This document shows, in pieces, positions 3,074-47,500 of a stretch of 64,000 nt of DNA (within the stretch, counting starts at the first letter, position 1; every line of letters starts with the position of its first letter). The position numbers and the translations under genes were made by a program. Origin of the DNA: Sphaerolaimus hirsutus (taxonomy: Eukaryota > Nematoda > Chromadorea > Monhysterida > Sphaerolaimidae). Below the pieces are notes generated by a model that saw nothing but the letters and a program-made list of their open reading frames with translations, ran no database searches and was not told the origin of the DNA. Location: positions 20,161,785 to 20,225,784 of the forward strand of contig OZ038452.1 in the NCBI GenBank assembly GCA_964036195.1. Reading direction: 5' to 3'.

Positions 3074-3539
3074 TAGGGTGTCAAATTTTCGTTTTCCGTT
3101 TTCCAAACTTTTTTTCCGTTTCCGTTTTTCTGGCTCATTTTCCATTTTCCAGCTAAATTTTCAGTTTTTCCGCTTTTTTTTCCGTTTTCCGCCTCATTTT
3201 ACCTTTTTCTGGCTCAACTTTCTGTTTTCTGATCAGCCAAACTGGTAAAAATTCATGCAGATTGTCAATGATGTAAAAAAAATTCTGTTTCCAGCAAAAT
3301 TTCAGTAAATTTTATCCATTTTCCTGCAAAATTTCAGCAAGTTTTTCCATTTCGGTGCAAATTTGATTTTTCCATTTCTGTTTTTCTGGCCTCTTTTTCC
3401 GTTTTCTGGCCGCTGAAATTTTTTTCCGTTTCCGTTTTCCGCCAAGTGCAAATTTTTTCCGTTTTCTGTTCCGTTTTCCGGCCGCTGAAAAATTTTTTCC
3501 GTTTCCGTTTTCCATAAAAAAATTTTTTTGGACACCCTA
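3074..3539. mobile_element. hAT-like element with TTTTCCG repeats, copy 1
   Basis: The ends are TAGGGTGTC and GACACCCTA, flanked by an exact 8-bp duplication ATTATGAG (3066-3073, 3540-3547). The interior is tandem TTTCCGTTTTCCGG on the plus strand. No protein is encoded; apparent ORFs are repeat translation. Confidence 0.75.
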
Positions 3540-3547
3540 ATTATGAG

Positions 3548-5150
3548 GTTATCGATTGGAAACAACACACGTATGATAATTAGCGATTTATTACAGGAAA
3601 ATGTCAATAGATGTAAAGAATCAAAATACTTGTCAATATATTGTAAATATGGTGTCCGGCAAGTAAATATTTACCTACACAGTAATATTTTTGCACTTTT
3701 GCTAATGATGGAAGTACTCACAAAAATGTGTGCTGACAAAAAAAAATTAGTTAAAAAGTTTCGTAATTCCGAAACATATTTAGTCCCAAATCTGCCAAAA
3801 AAGCAGTGAAGTATACTGACTAGTAAAATGTAAATATTTACACACATGCCAATTTGCCGATAATTTGAGGCTGTCGTTCAAGACTTATAGGCATTTGAAA
3901 ACGAATTTCAGTTGTCCGTCCTATTTTCTGACCCTGTTGTGAACTACGGAGCACATTTTTGTTAAAATTTTAATTACCTAAGCAAAGATGCACAGCCACT
4001 TGAATGTAAATACCCTCCAATAATCATCAAAGAGAATTATTTTCCATTAAAAAACGTTGTTTTAAAATGGTGGCGAGTGACACGTATTCAACAACAAAAC
4101 AACAACAAATTTCCCATGCATTGAACTTTGTTCGCAATTTACATCACACAGTTGTGTCATCTAAATGCTACACTTGGCATGTTTTTCAATGTAATGTGCA
4201 CAAAAATCAATGTTCAATTGACAACTTTAGGGACCATGCCAGTATGCATAAATGTAAATTGCACAACTCTCAGCAAAAAATGGGCATGTGGATTTGCAGT
4301 GCAGTGTCATGAATTGTTGTCATGCCAACACTTCCCAACTGTTCCCCAACATCACTAGTGCTTCCACACACATCATGTAAACTGCACGAAGACACTTCAC
4401 ACTTATATTTATAAAGTGCTGGCACACAATTTTGGTAAATTTTAGTGAAGCGTGTGGATGGAAGCACCAGCATGAAGTGTCTTCCACGATTTTGGGAGGA
4501 CCTGGGGCCAGTTCCGCAAGTGGAAAAGTTAAGAGTTAAAACTTAAGAGTTGAGTAAAATAACAAATGACAATTTATGAGTAAAGTTAAGAGTTTAGAGT
4601 TGAGTAAAACGACAAATGATTTTACTCAACTCTTAACTTTTAACTTTACTCTTAACTTATCATTTTAATCAACTCTTAACTCTTTACTCTTAACTTTTCC
4701 ACTTGCGGAACCGGCACCTGAAGTGCACGGTGAAGACATTATGATGCCAGTGGAAGCGTGTGAAACTGTGGAAGCATGCTACTTCCACATGTTCCACAAG
4801 CTGTGACTTGTTTGTTATATGCAAACAGCATTAAGCACTGTATTAGTTATATGCAAACAGCAATAAGCACTGTTGTCGAAAAATCGTCACAATGTGACGT
4901 GCAATCAATGCGACACAGCATTGTTTGACAGTATTATGAATGTGGCTTACAAAAACCCAGTAAGCACAATCATTTTACATAACATTTGTACCAAATTTCA
5001 TGTTGTCAAACAAAAGTGCATGCACGACACTTTTAGTTGACACTATGAGATAACAACTGCTTTCATCGTTTTAAGTGTCATCTAGTGTGTGGAGCACACT
5101 AGATGACACATCAACTAAACTAAGGAGTGTGCTCACAACTAAAATAAGGT
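3548..5150. repeat. Unique DNA with nested short palindromes
   Basis: 3548-4330 shows nothing. At about 4502-4716 a palindrome has ends GCCAGTTCCGCAAGTGG / CCACTTGCGGAACCGGC and AAGAGTTGAGTAAAA repeats. A divergent copy is at 36061-36210. It sits inside a looser inverted repeat (about 4340-4810). Another inverted repeat at about 5000-5150 carries TAGTTGACAC and CACTAGATGACAC motifs. Confidence 0.4.
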
Positions 5151-9733: not shown

Positions 9734-12700
9734 CTGAGAAATGAGAAAGTTGCGAGAAGGTCATTCTGTAAATGGTAACATACATCGCTACTCATACTAG
9801 GTATATGTGTAGCTGCGGTGAAAACTGGCAGCAATAAATACATCATGTACATTGCATACATGATGTACATCATTTCAGATGGGGGTATTTAAAGGGGCTC
9901 GAAAAAACCTGGGGGTATTTTGAGGGAAGTTAATTCAAGGAGGGTATTTCGAGGAAATACTGTATGCAATACCTGATGCTAAAACCTTTGGCTTTTAGCC
10001 ATTCAGAAACTTCCTGTGCATCAGAATGTTCAGTTATCTTCATATCACATTGATCATCATTATATGGTACATTTGTTCCATAATTTTGGCGCCTTTTCAA
10101 TGTGTTTGCCAGTTCCTCATGCAGCCCAATACCTGCCTGGTTTGTATCAACAGCTAAAAAGAAAACACATCTGTAAATATATTCAATTTACAGATCAAGG
10201 AAAATAGTTCACCAAATTGCCGCTGGTGAACTTCCAAACGCGGTGGGCGCGTTTCAGCAACATATGCTGCTCGATTTGCACGGACAGGGACCTCATTTTC
10301 TAGCAGTGCAGTTTCACGAGTGACATCACTACGAGTCTGCCGCTCCGATGCCTTGTATGCTGAGGCTTTCTGTAGTGTTGGATATAGCTCATCAAATCAA
10401 ATCACATCAAATCTTTATTGCAGCAGACAATATAATTCAAGGGCTATAATTACACACAACCAAAATCTACTGTAATCTCATGTCACACAGATGAATTTAT
10501 TCCTGACTGGCAAGCTATGTTCTACACTGTTCCCAAAATTCTGAATTTGTGCCTACATACAGTTAACCACCTCCATGTCATACGAAAGAATCTTGGCACG
10601 ATTGGGTACATTTTTACACTCCTGTGCATAAGGATTGGGTTGCGAAAGTAGTGATTTACTTATTTTGGATGCTGCTTAGCTGATCAGGGAGAATTCAGCT
10701 GATTCTGAATATAACAAAATCTGTGTCTACAAATTAAAATTAACATGTGGCCAGCTGTGCAAGAGTTTGACACCCCTGCCTGTTAGCAATTGAGCAGTGA
10801 GACCAAACATCTACAAAGAACCATTGTCTTAAATTTTATGCACAAAACTGGAAAATCTAGGTGGTAGAACCGAAGCCATTTGACACAAATGATTACAGGG
10901 ATAAAAAATGAATTTCCATATATATACCAAATTTTATTTTGTTGTTGCAACATTTTGTTAACATACGTATTAAATACAGGTTTAAGGGTAAATATGCTAA
11001 AAATAATCAATGTTCTTTTTGCAAGCAATGCAATACAGCTTATTGTTGTAACAGTCAGTGGGGTACATCATCTATGCTGTCTGCTGATGATATGGTTTAC
11101 AGGCTGTATTTTGTGACAAAAAATGCTTTGATATTTTCCATAACATCTCCAGTTCTATACTTCAGTTATCCAGCCAAAAATAAAATAGAGGAATAAAAAA
11201 ATAATTTCAATTATTGTGCCTCCAGCAATTAGACCAACAATTTCAGAGCAATCCAAATACCGTATTACCTCGAAATACCTCCATGGGGGTTTATTATTTC
11301 AGCAGCGAAATTTGAAGGGGGTTAATTCGAGGGGGGCTTATTCGAGGGGGTTGTAATTATTTCGTCAGGAATTGTCGAAAGGATCGCAGTAAATAGTAGG
11401 CATTTGCGAACCCATAACAGGTAATAAATGTGTCCAAACAGGATATATTTGGACATAAAAACGCAGATAGCTACACAAACTAGTCTATGTGCAGCTGCAA
11501 TGCAAATTAGCAGTAATAAATACATCATGTACATTGCATACATGATGTACATCATTCCGGAGGGGGGGGGGGTATTTCAAGGGGGGTTTACTATTTCCCC
11601 AGACCATTTTGAGGGTCATTAATTCGAGGGGCCTTAATTCAAGGGGGATAATTCGAGGTAATATGGTAGGTACCTTTTTGAGTGTCTGTAGCCTTGCCTC
11701 CTCAGATTCATTCCCATACTGTCTGTCTCCATTCATTGTTTCAAATCTCTGGGCTTGTAGCACCTGCCTTTGCCCCTGATTCTGCTGTTCAGTTTGATAT
11801 GTATTGGTATTCTGTTGACTGTATAGAGTGTAATTTTGATAGCTTTCTTGGTTTTTAATGTGGCCATTAGTCCCAGTTTCATTCACATTCTCTCTGGTGT
11901 TTTGCAGAACCTGAATTGTAAAAAGTTTTTGCACGTTCCATTGAATATTGTCAAATGAATTGACAAATAGTGAGATTGAGGTTACAGCATGCACCGTTTC
12001 ATTTTGCACCTCGCCCCTTGTTGTATTTCTGCTGTCATTCCGCGGTGCAGACTGGTAGGTTGCTTCAGCATCCCACTGGTCATCGCTTCCAACCTGCTGT
12101 TGAATCATCCTACCCCTCAATTGCTGCTGCTGTGTTGTTCCATTTGAAATGTTGTCATTCCTTGTTTGGTACTGTTGTTGTTGTGACCCATGTGAAATGT
12201 TGTCATTTCTTGTTTGGTACTGCTGCTGCGTTGTCCCATGTGAAATGTTGTCATTTCTTGTTTGGTACTGCTGCTGCGTTGTCCCATGTGAAATGTTGTC
12301 ATTTCTTGTTTGGTACTGCTGCTGCGTTGTCCCATGTGCAACATTATCATTTCTTGTCTGGTATTGCTGTGGCATTGTCCCAAGTGGAATATTTTCCTTC
12401 CTTCTTTGATGCTGATGGTTTGAAGTATTGTCGCTCATTGTTTGATACTGCTGCTGCCGCTGCTGGTACTGGCTTCCTTGCACACTCAGACCCATTCTGC
12501 CTTGTGCAGTCACATCTCTTTGCACGGTTGACTGCATGCGATTCGATTGCAGTGTTGCTCCAGATTTCTGAAAATGTGCATGTGATTAAAAAATCTCACA
12601 AACTAGGATTTTTACTCATTTTTACTTAAAAATGTGAATATTCAATGCTCAGTTTTGACTTAATACATTCCATACTACAGTCATTCAGTGTGAGTCCATT

Positions 12701-36774: not shown

Positions 36775-36952
36775 ATGGCCACCAGCCCCCTGTCATTACT
36801 AACACTAGCGTTGATTGCGATCGCCGCGCTGAGCTTGTCATCGGCGGAAAGCGGCGAGGATGACGCGGACAACATGGCCGCCACGCTGATGGAGGCCATG
36901 TGCCACGAGTACCCGCACGTGTGCGACCACTTGCTGCGCGAGATGCAGCAAG
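36775..36952 (+). CDS. Neuropeptide precursor exon 1 (signal peptide, two-cysteine spacer)
   Basis: The ATG at 36775 starts a signal peptide and is the first in-frame Met. The exon ends CAGCAAG|GTTGGT in phase 1. The segment MCHEYPHVC has the only two cysteines of the precursor. Confidence 0.88.
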
Positions 36953-39738
36953 GTTGGTGGGGGTTTGGGGCGGGTGGATGAGACTTGTCGACTTTAGAGT
37001 CGAGTGTTTTCTATCTCTACTTATTGGATTTTGGAATAAATTTTGAAAATTTTGAAAACTGAAATTTTGGAATAAAGTGACTCGAATGTCGGAAATTTCA
37101 ACGGAATTTGTAATCCTTCACGCAATTTGAATCTGTATTGCATTGCACACTTTATTTTGCCAATTTTTTGTATACAATTCAGGTAGTTCCTAACGTTTCC
37201 CAACTGCCTGGCATAGAAATCAGATTTTATCAGAGGATGAAATGCTTAGAATTTGAATGAAAAATTTTGGGGCGGAGTGTTGCACATACCATATATCCTT
37301 CAATAAGACGCCCCTTAATTAAATCTCCTGTTGGCTAGGTGAGAAAAAATAACAATTCCCCTTGAATAACTCCCCCTCTGGTTATTTGATGTGTATCCAC
37401 CACAATGTGTATTTGAATGATTTTGATGCTGATGAACAGAGTTGTTAAAAATACTGAACTTTTTTCAAAGTAAACGTAAACGTAAACGTAAAGTACCTAT
37501 TTATTTTTTACTCAACCCTGAGTACAGAAAACGTAAAGTATTTTTAAAATACTTTCACGCGGCGTAAAACGTGAGTAAACGTAAATACCAGTATTTTTAC
37601 TCAGGGAAAACGTAAAAGCAAGTATTTTTTCAATTTTGTACTCAGAAAAACATAACGGTGAGTAGAGCAAACGTGGAAGTCATCACTTTCCATACCCGTC
37701 GTAACTTTGATCACTGCCGCTACGATTTTCACAGCTACTTCAATTCGTTTGAATAGCTTTTGCTCGTTTTGCACCCCATTATTTTTTTGGAATTACGTTT
37801 CCTGTACTTGGAGTAAGTGAGTACCGGTATTTTTTTCGGGAGAAAACGTAAACGTATTTACGCAGTAATCGAGTAAACGTAAATACGTTTTAACAACTAT
37901 GCTGATTAACACAAATTTCAACATGAATACCTTGTCTTGTTGTTGTTGAACTGTTAAATAACTAGATTATGTGAGCTGATGGAATGCATCTACAAAGTGC
38001 AAGTTCTGGGAAAAATTTTACCCCTTGAATAACTCCCTCTTCTTTCATCAGACTTTTCTTGTGAGGGGAATTATTGAAGGGGGTATTCAAGGGAGAGGAG
38101 GAACTATTCAAGGGGGGATTATTTAAGGTGAGAAATTGTTATTTTGTCAAAATTTTCAAGCATGTTTCTATCAACTGATTTCACAAAGTATGCTTTATAA
38201 CAAAGTAACATACCATTTATATTGAAATTCAACAACAACAGATAAAGTAAATATGTAAGTATTTATGTGTGTTTACACACTACCCTCACATGTCTGTCCT
38301 GTCACCATTTGTAGTGTGGAGAAAAAACACAGAAACTAATGAGTAAATTTTGCCAGACATGGAAAAACAATTCGCAGAAAAAAATGAATAAATTTTGCCA
38401 GACGTGGAAAAACAATTCGCAGAATTTTTTGCAGATGGGGAGTTATGAAAGGGGGAATTATTCAATAAAAGGCGGTGAATGAACATTGCTTACAATTTGC
38501 AGAAGTTGCCAAGCGAGCGCCATTCGTACGTCTGGGAAAGAGGGCGCCATTTGTTCGCCTTGGAAAGCGAGCCCCGTTCGTCAGACTCGGCAGAGCACCA
38601 TACGTACGGTCAGTCGCATGTGAATTCGTGCTTATTGTTATGCAATAGCATGAACGAATTGAAGCTTTTGCACTAAAAATGCCTTGAAAACTCAAAACCG
38701 CAAAAATGTCTCAAAATGCCTCAAATGCCACATTCTTATTCATGCTTTCACCTATTTTTAGCTACCGTATTTCCACGAATTGACCCCCTTCAAAACACCC
38801 TTTCAAAGACACCCTCTTCAAAATACCCTTGTTGAAGGGTCGAAAAAAGTGTCAGCAGTATCCTATAAATCCTGTCCTTATGAAGTTGTATCCACATGAA
38901 CTCATTGTCAACTACCTATCATGTCTGGCAGTTAAGTTGCAACAACTTTCACCCCCTTCTTGTTCATTCCGTATTTCCTCGAAATACCCCCCCCCCCCTG
39001 AATTAGCCCTCACCTTGAAATACCCCCAGTTCTAAACGAGCTGAAGAAAAATAAAGATATCCCTCGAAATACCCCCGTATGTAAAAGAACAGTCTTTACG
39101 AAAATTTGTGGCGAAATAATACCCCCTCAAAAATTTTCACTCTGAAGAATAAACACGCTGGGGGTATTTCGATGAAATACCGTATTTGGCCGAAATTTGC
39201 ATCTCAGCCATACATTGACATTTGTTTTGAACAGATTCGAGTTTACCATAACGAATCAGTTCTGATCTCCGTTAGGAGTAGTTGACCGACTTCTTATTTT
39301 GGTAAACCCAAATGCAGATGTATCAGCATTATAATTTTCAGTTGTCAACTAGTTTGCATAAGGCCATTATTTTAATGAACCCACGGCAACGTTCAAACGT
39401 AGACACCGCGTCATAAATGTTTCACTCTTTCTGTCCGTTAACCCGTATTCAGCATAAACATGCATGTCAAAGAATGTACTGAAGCCCTTCAAGACGATCA
39501 CCTAGGTAGTATTATTTTACGATACTTTCAACTAATATCTAATTACAACATCCAATCCCATTGCAGACTTGGCAAACGCGGCAGCAAGCGAGCCGCCTTT
39601 GTCCGGCTTGGTAAAAAGTCCGACATGGAGCACGACTCCGGCTCCGGCGACGTGGACGACGCCAAGCACAGCGAGAGCGCAGAAAAGCGCGCCCCGTTTG
39701 TGCGACTCGGACGGGCGCCCTTTGTCCGTTTGGGTTGA
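36775..39738 (+). CDS. Neuropeptide precursor with seven VRL-amide peptides (three exons)
   Basis: The three exons (36775-36952, 38503-38608, 39567-39738) join in phase to a 151-residue secreted precursor. Residues 1-24 are a signal peptide (hydrophobic LLTLALIAIAALSL). Residues 25-60 form an acidic spacer with two cysteines, C43 and C50, which could form a disulfide loop. Seven short peptides follow, each ending in Gly for C-terminal amidation: APFVRLG five times, APYVRLG once, AAFVRLG once. They are separated by KR, KK or single R sites. A 22-residue acidic spacer lies between the fifth and sixth. Intron 2 falls inside the arginine codon of APYVRLG. The product is a hormone or transmitter precursor for the regulated secretory pathway. 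I do not recognise the family: the C terminus resembles FxPRL (pyrokinin) and FVRI-type peptides but has neither exact signature. Confidence 0.9.
36953..38502. repeat. Neuropeptide intron 1 repeats
   Basis: 37442-37903 is a CGTAAA hAT-like element (CAGAGTTGTTAAAA to TTTAACAACTATG, duplication CTGATGAA / CTGATTAA). 37290-37390 and 37990-38130 are CCTTGAATAA remnants interrupted by it. The rest is unique. Confidence 0.5.
38503..38608 (+). CDS. Neuropeptide precursor exon 2 (three APFVRLG copies and start of APYVRLG)
   Basis: The acceptor is ACAATTTGCAG and the donor TACG|GTCAGT. It encodes EVAKR, then three APFVRLG units and APYV. The third unit is followed by a single R instead of KR. Confidence 0.9.
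38760..39190. repeat. Neuropeptide intron 2 repeats
   Basis: 38765-38850 and 38967-39186 are CCTCGAAATACC foldback pieces (CCGTATTTCCTCGAAATACC to GGTATTTCGATGAAATACCG). Confidence 0.5.
39567..39738 (+). CDS. Neuropeptide precursor exon 3 (end of APYVRLG, AAFVRLG, two APFVRLG, stop)
   Basis: The acceptor is CCATTGCAG. Its first base completes the split Arg codon, giving APYVRLG-KR-GSKR-AAFVRLG-KK. It ends with two APFVRLG units parted by a single R; the last Gly is directly followed by TGA. Confidence 0.92.
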
Positions 39739-44520: not shown

Positions 44521-47500
44521 GTGTGTGAGCGTGGAAATTGACTTTAATGCTTACAAAAATAGCTAATTACACAGAGTAGATAACATATTCAAGATTATAA
44601 GTTATATTTACAGAAAAGAAGGTTGTGACTAGAGATGGCCGGTGCTTTTTAACTAATAAAATGTTTTTAAAAATGGCAGGTAAATACCGATTCACAACGT
44701 ATTTTGTATTTTTGCGCGCAAGCATACAATTTTTCATTAATTTTGTGGTATTTTTAGTGGCAAACCTTCCATTGATGCATGCCACCATGTAACAACAAGC
44801 TCTGATATGTTAATGTATTATCTAAGGTAAGACAATGTGCTTTCACATGCTTCTGACGTATGAAACATCACTCTCAATATATTTACTTTCGCTTCTAAGC
44901 TTTTTTGAGCACTGCTCTGTCTAATTTCAATTGAGGTCAAGATTATTTTAGTTTTCGGGGTGCAATTAGGTTTGGAAAAAACTTTTTTTTCGGAAAATAA
45001 TTCCGAAATATGGTTATCAGTCAACATATACAGGTAGGAAAATGGAAGCTTTAACACTAAAATGCCTCAGAACCAATGGAAACAGCCACCAATGGTAATG
45101 CGGTTGTGAAATTGCGCGCTTGCACACAAAAAATTGCTAAATACCCAGTGCATAAGACTAATTTTTTTGGCTGAGGTTTAAAAAACGATTTCGATGGTCA
45201 CGGTTTTTTTATCAAACAACATGAGTTCCTTTAAGTTCAAAAACTTCGGCCATCCCTGGGTGCGATCTAAGAATGACACTTGATTTATAAAAAATAAATG
45301 TAATCCAACAATAATAGAAATCATAGAAACTCGAAGGAGCATCATATTTTTCTCAAAATTTTCTTTCATCCATCCTTAGTCCCATCGACCAAAAAACAAC
45401 GACATTCAGTGAACGATTCTGACATTTCTCGTAGTCAAACAAACTCGCACTCGCAGGGCCGCGGTCGGGTCGAGAAAACGGAAATCATCGAGATGGCCAT
45501 CCGTTACATGCAGCACGTGCACGAGGAGCAGCGCCGCTTGCAGCAGCACATCGCCAACGCCGGCATCGGCATGCCCGCCGCCGCCGCCGCGCCGGCCGTG
45601 CAGAATGGACTCGACGATGCGACGCAGAGCGAACCCATCGATATCGGTACGTTGCTTGCGACATATTGATGTGTTTGAGATAGATATTTAGTTGCATTTT
45701 TTTACTGATTATGAATTGGGATTGCGCTGCTCAACTTTCATGCGAATCCATCCAGCATGCTCATAAATATAAAGGATTACTATGCGCCCGAAACAGTGCC
45801 ATTTATTCAACGGTCTGTATAAAAACGTGCAAAATCTATAGGGAAATGAACCTATGAACTTAGACATGTAATTACAATTACATGGAAGTACTTAGATAGG
45901 TTATTAATTACTTATATATGTAATTACATGCAAGGTATAACTACATAGAATTTCAGACATACATAAATACGTTTTGTAGGTCTAGTCAATGATACATACT
46001 GCCTCACTCTGTCATAGTGTTTATTATAAGATGCTGCATTAATTTGACCCCATTCCATTCAACTCAGCCCACGTCCATTCATAAAAGTAGACTCTACTTA
46101 GCTGGGCAAAAAGCCGCGAAAGAATCAGGCTAACCGTGCCAGCGTCCACCTGGCAGCGAAGTGGGCAGTTACGCACGCTGCCGCCGGAGCACATGCACGG
46201 GCAGACACTCGCGCATGCGACCGCCACCACCATCAAAAAACAGGCAATTAGGCAATCCACGTGCGAATGCACACGCGCGCGGCCGCTGGCAGTCGACGAG
46301 TCGTTTATGCATGCGCTCGCCGCCGCCGTCGCGGCTGTGCCAGGTGCCGACTGCCACAACCTCTCGCCCGCCTGAAGGCAGCGAAATATCCAGATGAATA
46401 GTAAAATTCTGTTTGTTTGCCGCGCGCGCACGCGCGCAAATGCCGGATAATAAATACTATGAGTCGCGTACGCGAGTATCCGACCACAGTGGTTGGCGAC
46501 TGTTTATCTAATAGGATAGGCCGGTGCGCATGCGTGGGGATCGGTGATAAGGTGCAAGGTCGGTCATGAGCCGCTGCAGATGCCGCGCGGCCGTCACGCG
46601 TCACTCGCTTGTTTGACACGTGAACCGAACGAGTCAATGCCGTCACTCAACGTTTTACCTCAACTCATCAAGTCAACACACCTAAACATATACGGTGATT
46701 GAACGCAATGATTCCACACGCAGACGACACGCAAGAATGCAACAACAACAGCAAAGACGCCAGCACGTGCACCCAGGAGGACCAGGAAAACACGGTGGAG
46801 ACAAAGCCGGAAACGGACAAACTCGCAAACGATGCTGATCGTGGCCACGATGGCGGTTCGGTGCAGCCGCCCAGTGAAAGTTCACCCAATGAAAGTTCGA
46901 GCGACTCGACGAAAATTCGAACGAATGCAGACGATCCAAAGTACAGACAGGGCTATTTTGACTGCGTGGCGGAAACTCTGCGTTTCCTGGCGATCGCCGG
47001 GGGTCGCCTGATTGATGATGGAACAAAGGCGCAGTTGTTGCTCCATTTGCAGAAGTACTTTGGCCACGTTACGCATGGTCGGTTGGTGTTTGAAAATAAA
47101 AATAACACGTTCTCTGATATGGGACACACTAGGGTTCAAATGGGATCAACGTTTTGTGATCGGGAATGATTGGTATTTTGAATTTTCGGGATCGGTATAA
47201 GGTGATCGGAGTCGGGATTTTTGACAAAGTTACAGGGTTTTTCTTTAATTTTGCACAAAACAATCCAAGATACACTTGAATGCCATAGAAGTGACATAAT
47301 ATGCACACAGGAGGTTTCCGTTCACATTTCTCGGCACAAAAAAAGTCATTTGGAAATGGGGCTTCGAGATCCGGGATGGGGATCCCGTTTGAAGCATATG
47401 GCACACCAACGAATAAGGCAAACAAATACACACTCACGCAGACTCCACAAACTCGACACTGGCCAAGCTGTTATACGGCGAGACCAAACCCACCACCTTC

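Follow-up and report, generated by a model that had tools for sequence, protein, structure and literature searches.

The RLamide precursor gene and its surroundings

The 64,000-nucleotide stretch of DNA analyzed here (the window), which lies on contig C3, carries on its plus strand a three-exon gene for a predicted precursor of seven short, near-identical peptides (Table 1). Joining the exons yields 456 nt, that is, 151 codons and a stop in an open frame; both predicted introns are GT...AG, the first in phase 1 and the second in phase 2. The precursor begins with a hydrophobic leader (residues 1-24, with a hydropathy maximum of 2.45 at residues 8-22) that is likely cleaved after LSSA, as judged by inspection. 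The peptide units comprise five copies of APFVRLG, one of APYVRLG and one of AAFVRLG, each with an amidation glycine. Units 1 to 7 are flanked on their C-terminal side by KR, KR, R, KR, KK, R and the stop, respectively; in addition, GSKR follows the KR of unit 4, and the KK of unit 5 is succeeded by a lengthy acidic segment that closes with KR. The sequence-only reading had described a 151-residue precursor with a signal peptide, two cysteines at positions 43 and 50, this set of units and cleavage sites, and exon joins in phase, and the predicted splicing, leader hydropathy and translation agree with it on all of these points. With short peptides that carry an amidation glycine and mono- or dibasic sites behind a putative signal peptide, here judged by hydropathy, the precursor has the layout of FLP precursors. 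A comparison of the window against Rfam gave no matches at the gathering threshold.

Table 1. Features of the precursor gene and of the remaining window (window coordinates), followed by other loci of the genome with FLP-like peptide units.
Feature	Coordinates	Strand	Content and evidence
Exon 1	36775..36952	+	Start codon, hydrophobic leader, acidic stretch, spacer MCHEYPHVC; GT donor
Two-cysteine spacer C43-H-E-Y-P-H-V-C50	36901..36924	+	Resembles MCGQYPALC of the C7 RFamide FLP gene (L060)
Intron 1, phase 1	36953..38502	+	Splicing translation; L060 and L010 likewise split spacer from peptides by a phase-1 intron
Exon 2	38503..38608	+	APFVRLG x3, then start of APYVRLG
Peptide unit 1, APFVRLG	38517..38537	+	Translation
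Peptide unit 2, APFVRLG	38544..38564	+	Translation
Peptide unit 3, APFVRLG	38571..38591	+	Translation
Peptide unit 4, APYVRLG, split by intron 2	38595..38608 + 39567..39573	+	Translation
Intron 2, phase 2	38609..39566	+	Contains inverted repeat 38966-38991 / 39160-39185
Exon 3	39567..39738	+	Remainder of APYVRLG, GSKR, AAFVRLG, acidic spacer, APFVRLG x2, stop TGA
Peptide unit 5, AAFVRLG	39592..39612	+	Translation
Peptide unit 6, APFVRLG	39691..39711	+	Translation
Peptide unit 7, APFVRLG	39715..39735	+	Translation
Inverted repeat of intron 2	38966..39187		CCGTATTTCCTCGAAATACCCCC type
Open frame with Hairy_orange domain	46699..47169	+	Domain match 2.3e-6
Glutamine-rich open frame	11485..12537	-	Repeated units
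L009	C3:16511000-16520000, 4110-4425 within locus		KPAFVRLG x4; 3.7 Mb from window gene
L067			KPNFLRFG; flp-1-like
L068			PEGIMRFG/PEGVLRFG; flp-18-like
L070			KHEYLRFG x4; flp-14
L072-L074, L076, L077	C7:20.64-20.68 Mb		KNEFIRFG; flp-8
L075	C6		KNEFIRFG/KSEFIRFG
L010			KSAFVRFG; flp-17-like
L060	C7		KSSHFRFG
L081			PGLMRFG
L080			GMxxLRFG
L085			NAPIRFG

The peptide units were further analyzed for selection and copy number. Among the seven units, pS was 0.837 and pN 0.065, and none of 1105 base-column shuffles (those left of 2000 after shuffles with stops were dropped) gave a pN/pS down to the resulting 0.078. The terminal leucines of units 1 to 7 are encoded by CTG, CTT, CTC, CTT, CTT, CTC and TTG; because four different codons are used, it is leucine itself that has been kept rather than one codon. 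A search of all 762 contigs of the genome (348 Mb) with the peptide region recovered the gene's own two peptide exons (7.4e-31 and 1.3e-13) and otherwise only two matches, with E values of 1.8 and 2.5. This search missed the second RLamide gene, L009, and therefore argues only against close second copies.

Elsewhere in the window, the frame with the Hairy_orange domain is likely, by its sequence, an exon of a HES-type transcription factor, and the glutamine-rich frame on the minus strand had no Pfam matches above the cut-off. Visual inspection of L009 and L010 also showed stretches like the inverted repeat of intron 2, and this likeness perhaps reflects a small mobile repeat family.

The host genome and its FLP-like loci

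The sequence-only reading had implied an arthropod setting. Two protein families typical of nematodes are present in the genome, Col_cuticle_N with 56 matches and TTR-52 with 11. Four contig ends were read, of which the starts of C3 and C14 consist of (TTAGGC)n, a repeat reported on most nematode chromosomes (PMC9071541), and the other two, at the far ends of C7 and C13, are nontelomeric. The mitochondrial contig (C762, covered by L019/L020; 14,754 bases) was read by eye and carries nad2 and nad1 on one strand, opposite to all the other large genes that could be named; mitochondrial genes on both strands are described as common in Enoplea, and genes on one strand as the arrangement in Chromadorea (PMC9115964). 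On account of the TTAGGC ends, the cuticle collagens, the two-strand mitochondrion and the FLP genes, the host is read as an early-branching nematode that is, by its mitochondrial strand layout, probably enoplean; an origin in the sister phylum Nematomorpha is less likely. The arthropod setting and a spiralian one were both dropped on the telomere repeat, the cuticle collagens and the FLP set.

The order of the mitochondrial genes, again by eye, starts with nad2 and nad1 in reverse orientation and continues with cox1, atp6, repeats, cox3, cob, cox2, nad3, nad5, nad6, nad4L and nad4, and ARAGORN as run on this contig returned no tRNA. The spliced leader SL1 (RF00198) had no match here and likewise none in the controls, so that the result is uninformative. 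Two homeodomains on different chromosomes, L026 (C2:6323931) and L031 (C1:12717587), appear posterior-Hox-like by eye; a single HOX9-13 gene has been reported for enopleans (PMC11603191).

Nonexhaustive searches of the genome brought up FLP-like peptide units at 12 or more loci, with both RLamide genes included and the flp-8 copies on C7 counted as one (Table 1); two of these loci are of the flp-6/flp-17 kind. The second RLamide gene, L009, has its four KPAFVRLG units spread across three exons, with a possible leader exon from near position 3477 of the locus. Its peptide is closest to flp-9 KPSFVRF, and flp-9 is reported as present in clade 9 only (PMC11658156). The same source holds flp-1, -8, -14 and -18 to be probably ancestral and gives an average of 3.9 flp genes for clade 2 species. 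The flp-8-type exons (KNEFIRFG) on C7 recur at least twice at a spacing of about 33 kb, probably by tandem duplication.

The pattern VR[LF]GKR matched the genome 52 times, against 121 matches for the reversed control pattern, and 30 of the 52 were inspected. Two belong to the window gene, and eight loci (L001-L008) lacked tandem peptides. Tandem peptides were present in two of nine further regions (L009 and L010, with five matches together) and in one of eight others (L060).

Probable kinship with an RFamide gene and family assignment

The nearest precursor found is L060, an RFamide FLP gene with two KSSHFRFG units, one KTSYFRFG and one MVRFG (modeled at 119 residues, with the longest of three in-frame options chosen as the exon 2 donor). 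The relation between the two genes extends beyond the peptide motif. BLASTP aligned the precursors with an E value of 5e-9 and 31% identity over 117 residues, leader and spacer included, in a single comparison to whose score the basic repeats contribute. Moreover, an ungapped alignment of the spacers, which leaves the peptides out, spans 23 residues (MCHEYPHVCDHLLREMQQEVAKR with MCGQYPALCEKALEEEVSSEDKR) and scores 47, compared to 20.2 on average after shuffling (z 6.9); none of 2000 shuffles reached this score. Both genes share the form MCxxYPxxC (MCHEYPHVC and MCGQYPALC), and in both the leader and spacer occupy exon 1 and a phase-1 intron precedes the peptide exon, the intron positions being four residues apart in the ungapped alignment.

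In the flp-17-like gene L010 (three KSAFVRFG and one KSSYVRFG), a phase-1 intron likewise separates the spacer from the peptides, and an extra intron lies between leader and spacer. Its spacer, LCNTHPDLALC, is close to the FCXXFPXLXXC spacer reported for most flp-6/flp-17 sequences (PMC11658156), and the window gene and L060 carry a form two residues shorter. The spacers of the window gene and L010 are not significantly similar (z 0.4, reached in 662 of 2000 shuffles), and those of L060 and L010 are weakly so (z 2.2; 69 of 2000). A spacer search pattern, written after the window and L010 forms had been seen, occurred once in the 64-kb window, at the right place, and led to the L060 spacer. Across 45 control loci (174,865 bases), it turned up a single time, and shuffling the window spacer 200,000 times produced it in 20 cases. 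It was present in three of the 11 FLP-like loci scanned (the window gene, L010 and L060); for most of the others, the sequence covered extended about 1.5 kb to either side, which gives the lack of the pattern there little weight, and L085 lay outside the scan.

Other traits argue against simple membership in the family. The RFamide C terminus that defines FLPs is found in none of the seven units, which all end in RLG, and the KS-type peptide start of flp-6/flp-17 is absent, the units starting with AP or AA. The Pfam family FARP (PF01581) matched neither the window precursor nor that of L009; it passed the cut-off on five of seven RFamide precursor pieces scanned from the genome and stayed below it (15.5 bits) on L060 (12.0 bits) and L081 (14.9 bits). 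When APFVRL was compared to the peptides of 31 flp genes (one to five each, flp-33 left out; peptide-to-gene names as in Table 1 of PMC4058706), the best score was 25 for AADGAPFIRF of flp-13, followed by 21 for flp-11. Because of the missing RFamide end, the missing FARP match and flp-13 as the nearest by peptide, the gene is named FLP-derived rather than plain FLP. The best reading of its sequence is thus an FLP-derived RLamide precursor, apparently FLP by descent and outside the strict definition by its end. In all likelihood, it is a nematode precursor that descended from FLP genes, nearest to the flp-6/flp-17 kind, and whose seven peptides all exchanged an RFamide end for an RLamide one, the direction of change presumably being from RF to RL.

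The peptide score raises another explanation, namely, that the gene is this lineage's counterpart of flp-13, in which APFIRF-type peptides turned into APFVRL and the cysteine spacer either arose or persisted separately. In a search of the genome for flp-13 and other FLP peptides, among the 18 matches listed, the one new place inspected (C7:12261768) carries NAPIRFG units, a result that speaks neither for nor against a separate flp-13 gene. However, six residues of peptide offer little phylogenetic information, whereas the spacer and exon plan fit the KSxxFRF gene L060, and no such cysteine spacer is known in Caenorhabditis elegans FLP-13; a flp-13 origin is accordingly regarded as unlikely. 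Far less probable is membership in the lophotrochozoan FVRI/FxRIamide family (the flatworm I/Lamide or npp-1 peptides). Schistosoma Sm-npp-1 is predicted to yield AFVRL-NH2 and GFVRI-NH2 (PMC9495596), and another, unrelated Schistosoma gene encodes a precursor named RLamide (PMC4723143), but the genome is that of a nematode, the peptides end in RLamide rather than RIamide, and the RFamide FLP gene L060 in this genome is similar to the precursor, the flatworm comparison being limited to the peptide. Finally, a pseudogene, or open frames that arose by chance and yield nothing, would hardly account for seven units conserved as protein with synonymous drift, two in-phase introns and no stop, and this reading is given the least credence.

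Descent from FLP genes thus remains the preferred reading, and the sequence-only interpretation is partly supported. Its view that the peptides are VRL-amides distinct from pyrokinins and not simply FVRIamides holds, given that no unit has a proline before the arginine and all seven are RLG-ended. Its claim that the precursor fits no family is superseded by the spacer, intron phase and precursor layout, which tie the gene to an RFamide FLP gene of the flp-6/flp-17 kind elsewhere in this genome. As to a divergent or lineage-specific peptide, this part appears plausible, since the only match to FVRLamide-type strings in the open-licence literature was the predicted Schistosoma AFVRL-NH2 (PMC9495596).

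Proposed action and relation to known peptide systems

From the gene layout, a mode of action can be proposed. The precursor would enter the secretory pathway via its leader; a proprotein convertase and a carboxypeptidase would cut and trim it at the KR, KK and R sites, and the C-terminal glycines would be converted to amides. If the gene is expressed and processed in this way, five copies of APFVRLamide and one each of APYVRLamide and AAFVRLamide would be released and may act on a G protein-coupled receptor of the FLP-receptor kind. The many near-identical copies suggest a single receptor preference with a gain in output. The spacer may aid the structure, processing or trafficking of the precursor, as has been proposed for such precursor regions (PMC11658156).

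The C terminus of FLPs is held to be most important for receptor binding (PMC11658156); together with an all-RLamide precursor and a second such gene, this points to a possible change of receptor. It is conceivable, although on balance doubtful, that early-branching nematodes possess a separate RLamide branch within the FLP system, consisting of at least two genes (the window gene and L009), with leucine in place of the terminal phenylalanine throughout, held by selection, and with a shift of at least one receptor from RFamide to RLamide preference. No report of such a receptor-ligand switch in crown nematodes was found in the open-licence literature. Whether the last common ancestor of nematodes had about four flp genes or a larger set that was later lost is posed as an open question in PMC11658156, where genomes from clades 1 to 5 and Nematomorpha are suggested as a help in deciding the ancestral number. 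A genome with at least 12 FLP-like loci and a mitochondrion pointing to an early branch bears on this ancestral set.

RLamide ends are already known in some FLPs, among peptides of FLP-6, -19, -20 and -25 (PMC11658156); what appears to be new is an all-RLamide variant of the nematode FLP system, no description of which was found in the open-licence literature. The closest precedent is Meloidogyne flp-6, which contains KSAYMRLamide and likewise changed phenylalanine to leucine at the amidated end within the FLP family, in two of its four peptides, whereas the window precursor is RLamide throughout; strings of the KSAYMRLamide type were found in the open-licence literature only in that source (PMC11658156).

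In overall plan, the window gene is most similar to flp-6/flp-17 (KSAYMRFamide and KSAFVRFamide), in which a comparable cysteine-proline spacer separates the leader from a tandem series of short amidated peptides with basic cleavage sites (PMC11658156). It differs from them in peptides that start with AP or AA instead of KS and end in RLamide in seven of seven cases, and in a spacer shorter by two residues. The closest peptide body is that of flp-13 (-P[F/L/I][I/L/M/V]RFamide; PMC4058706), with APFIRF compared to APFVRL, the terminal residue being different. Outside nematodes, flatworm npp-1 and the lophotrochozoan FxRIamides share the FVR[I/L]amide end but belong to other phyla and were compared by peptide alone. 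Similarly, spiralian myomodulins, in which an RLamide or RMamide end is usual (PMC8557429), come from another phylum group and are likened by the peptide end only. Pyrokinins (FxPRLamide) share the RLamide end as well, and it is the proline before the arginine that sets them apart from the window peptides.
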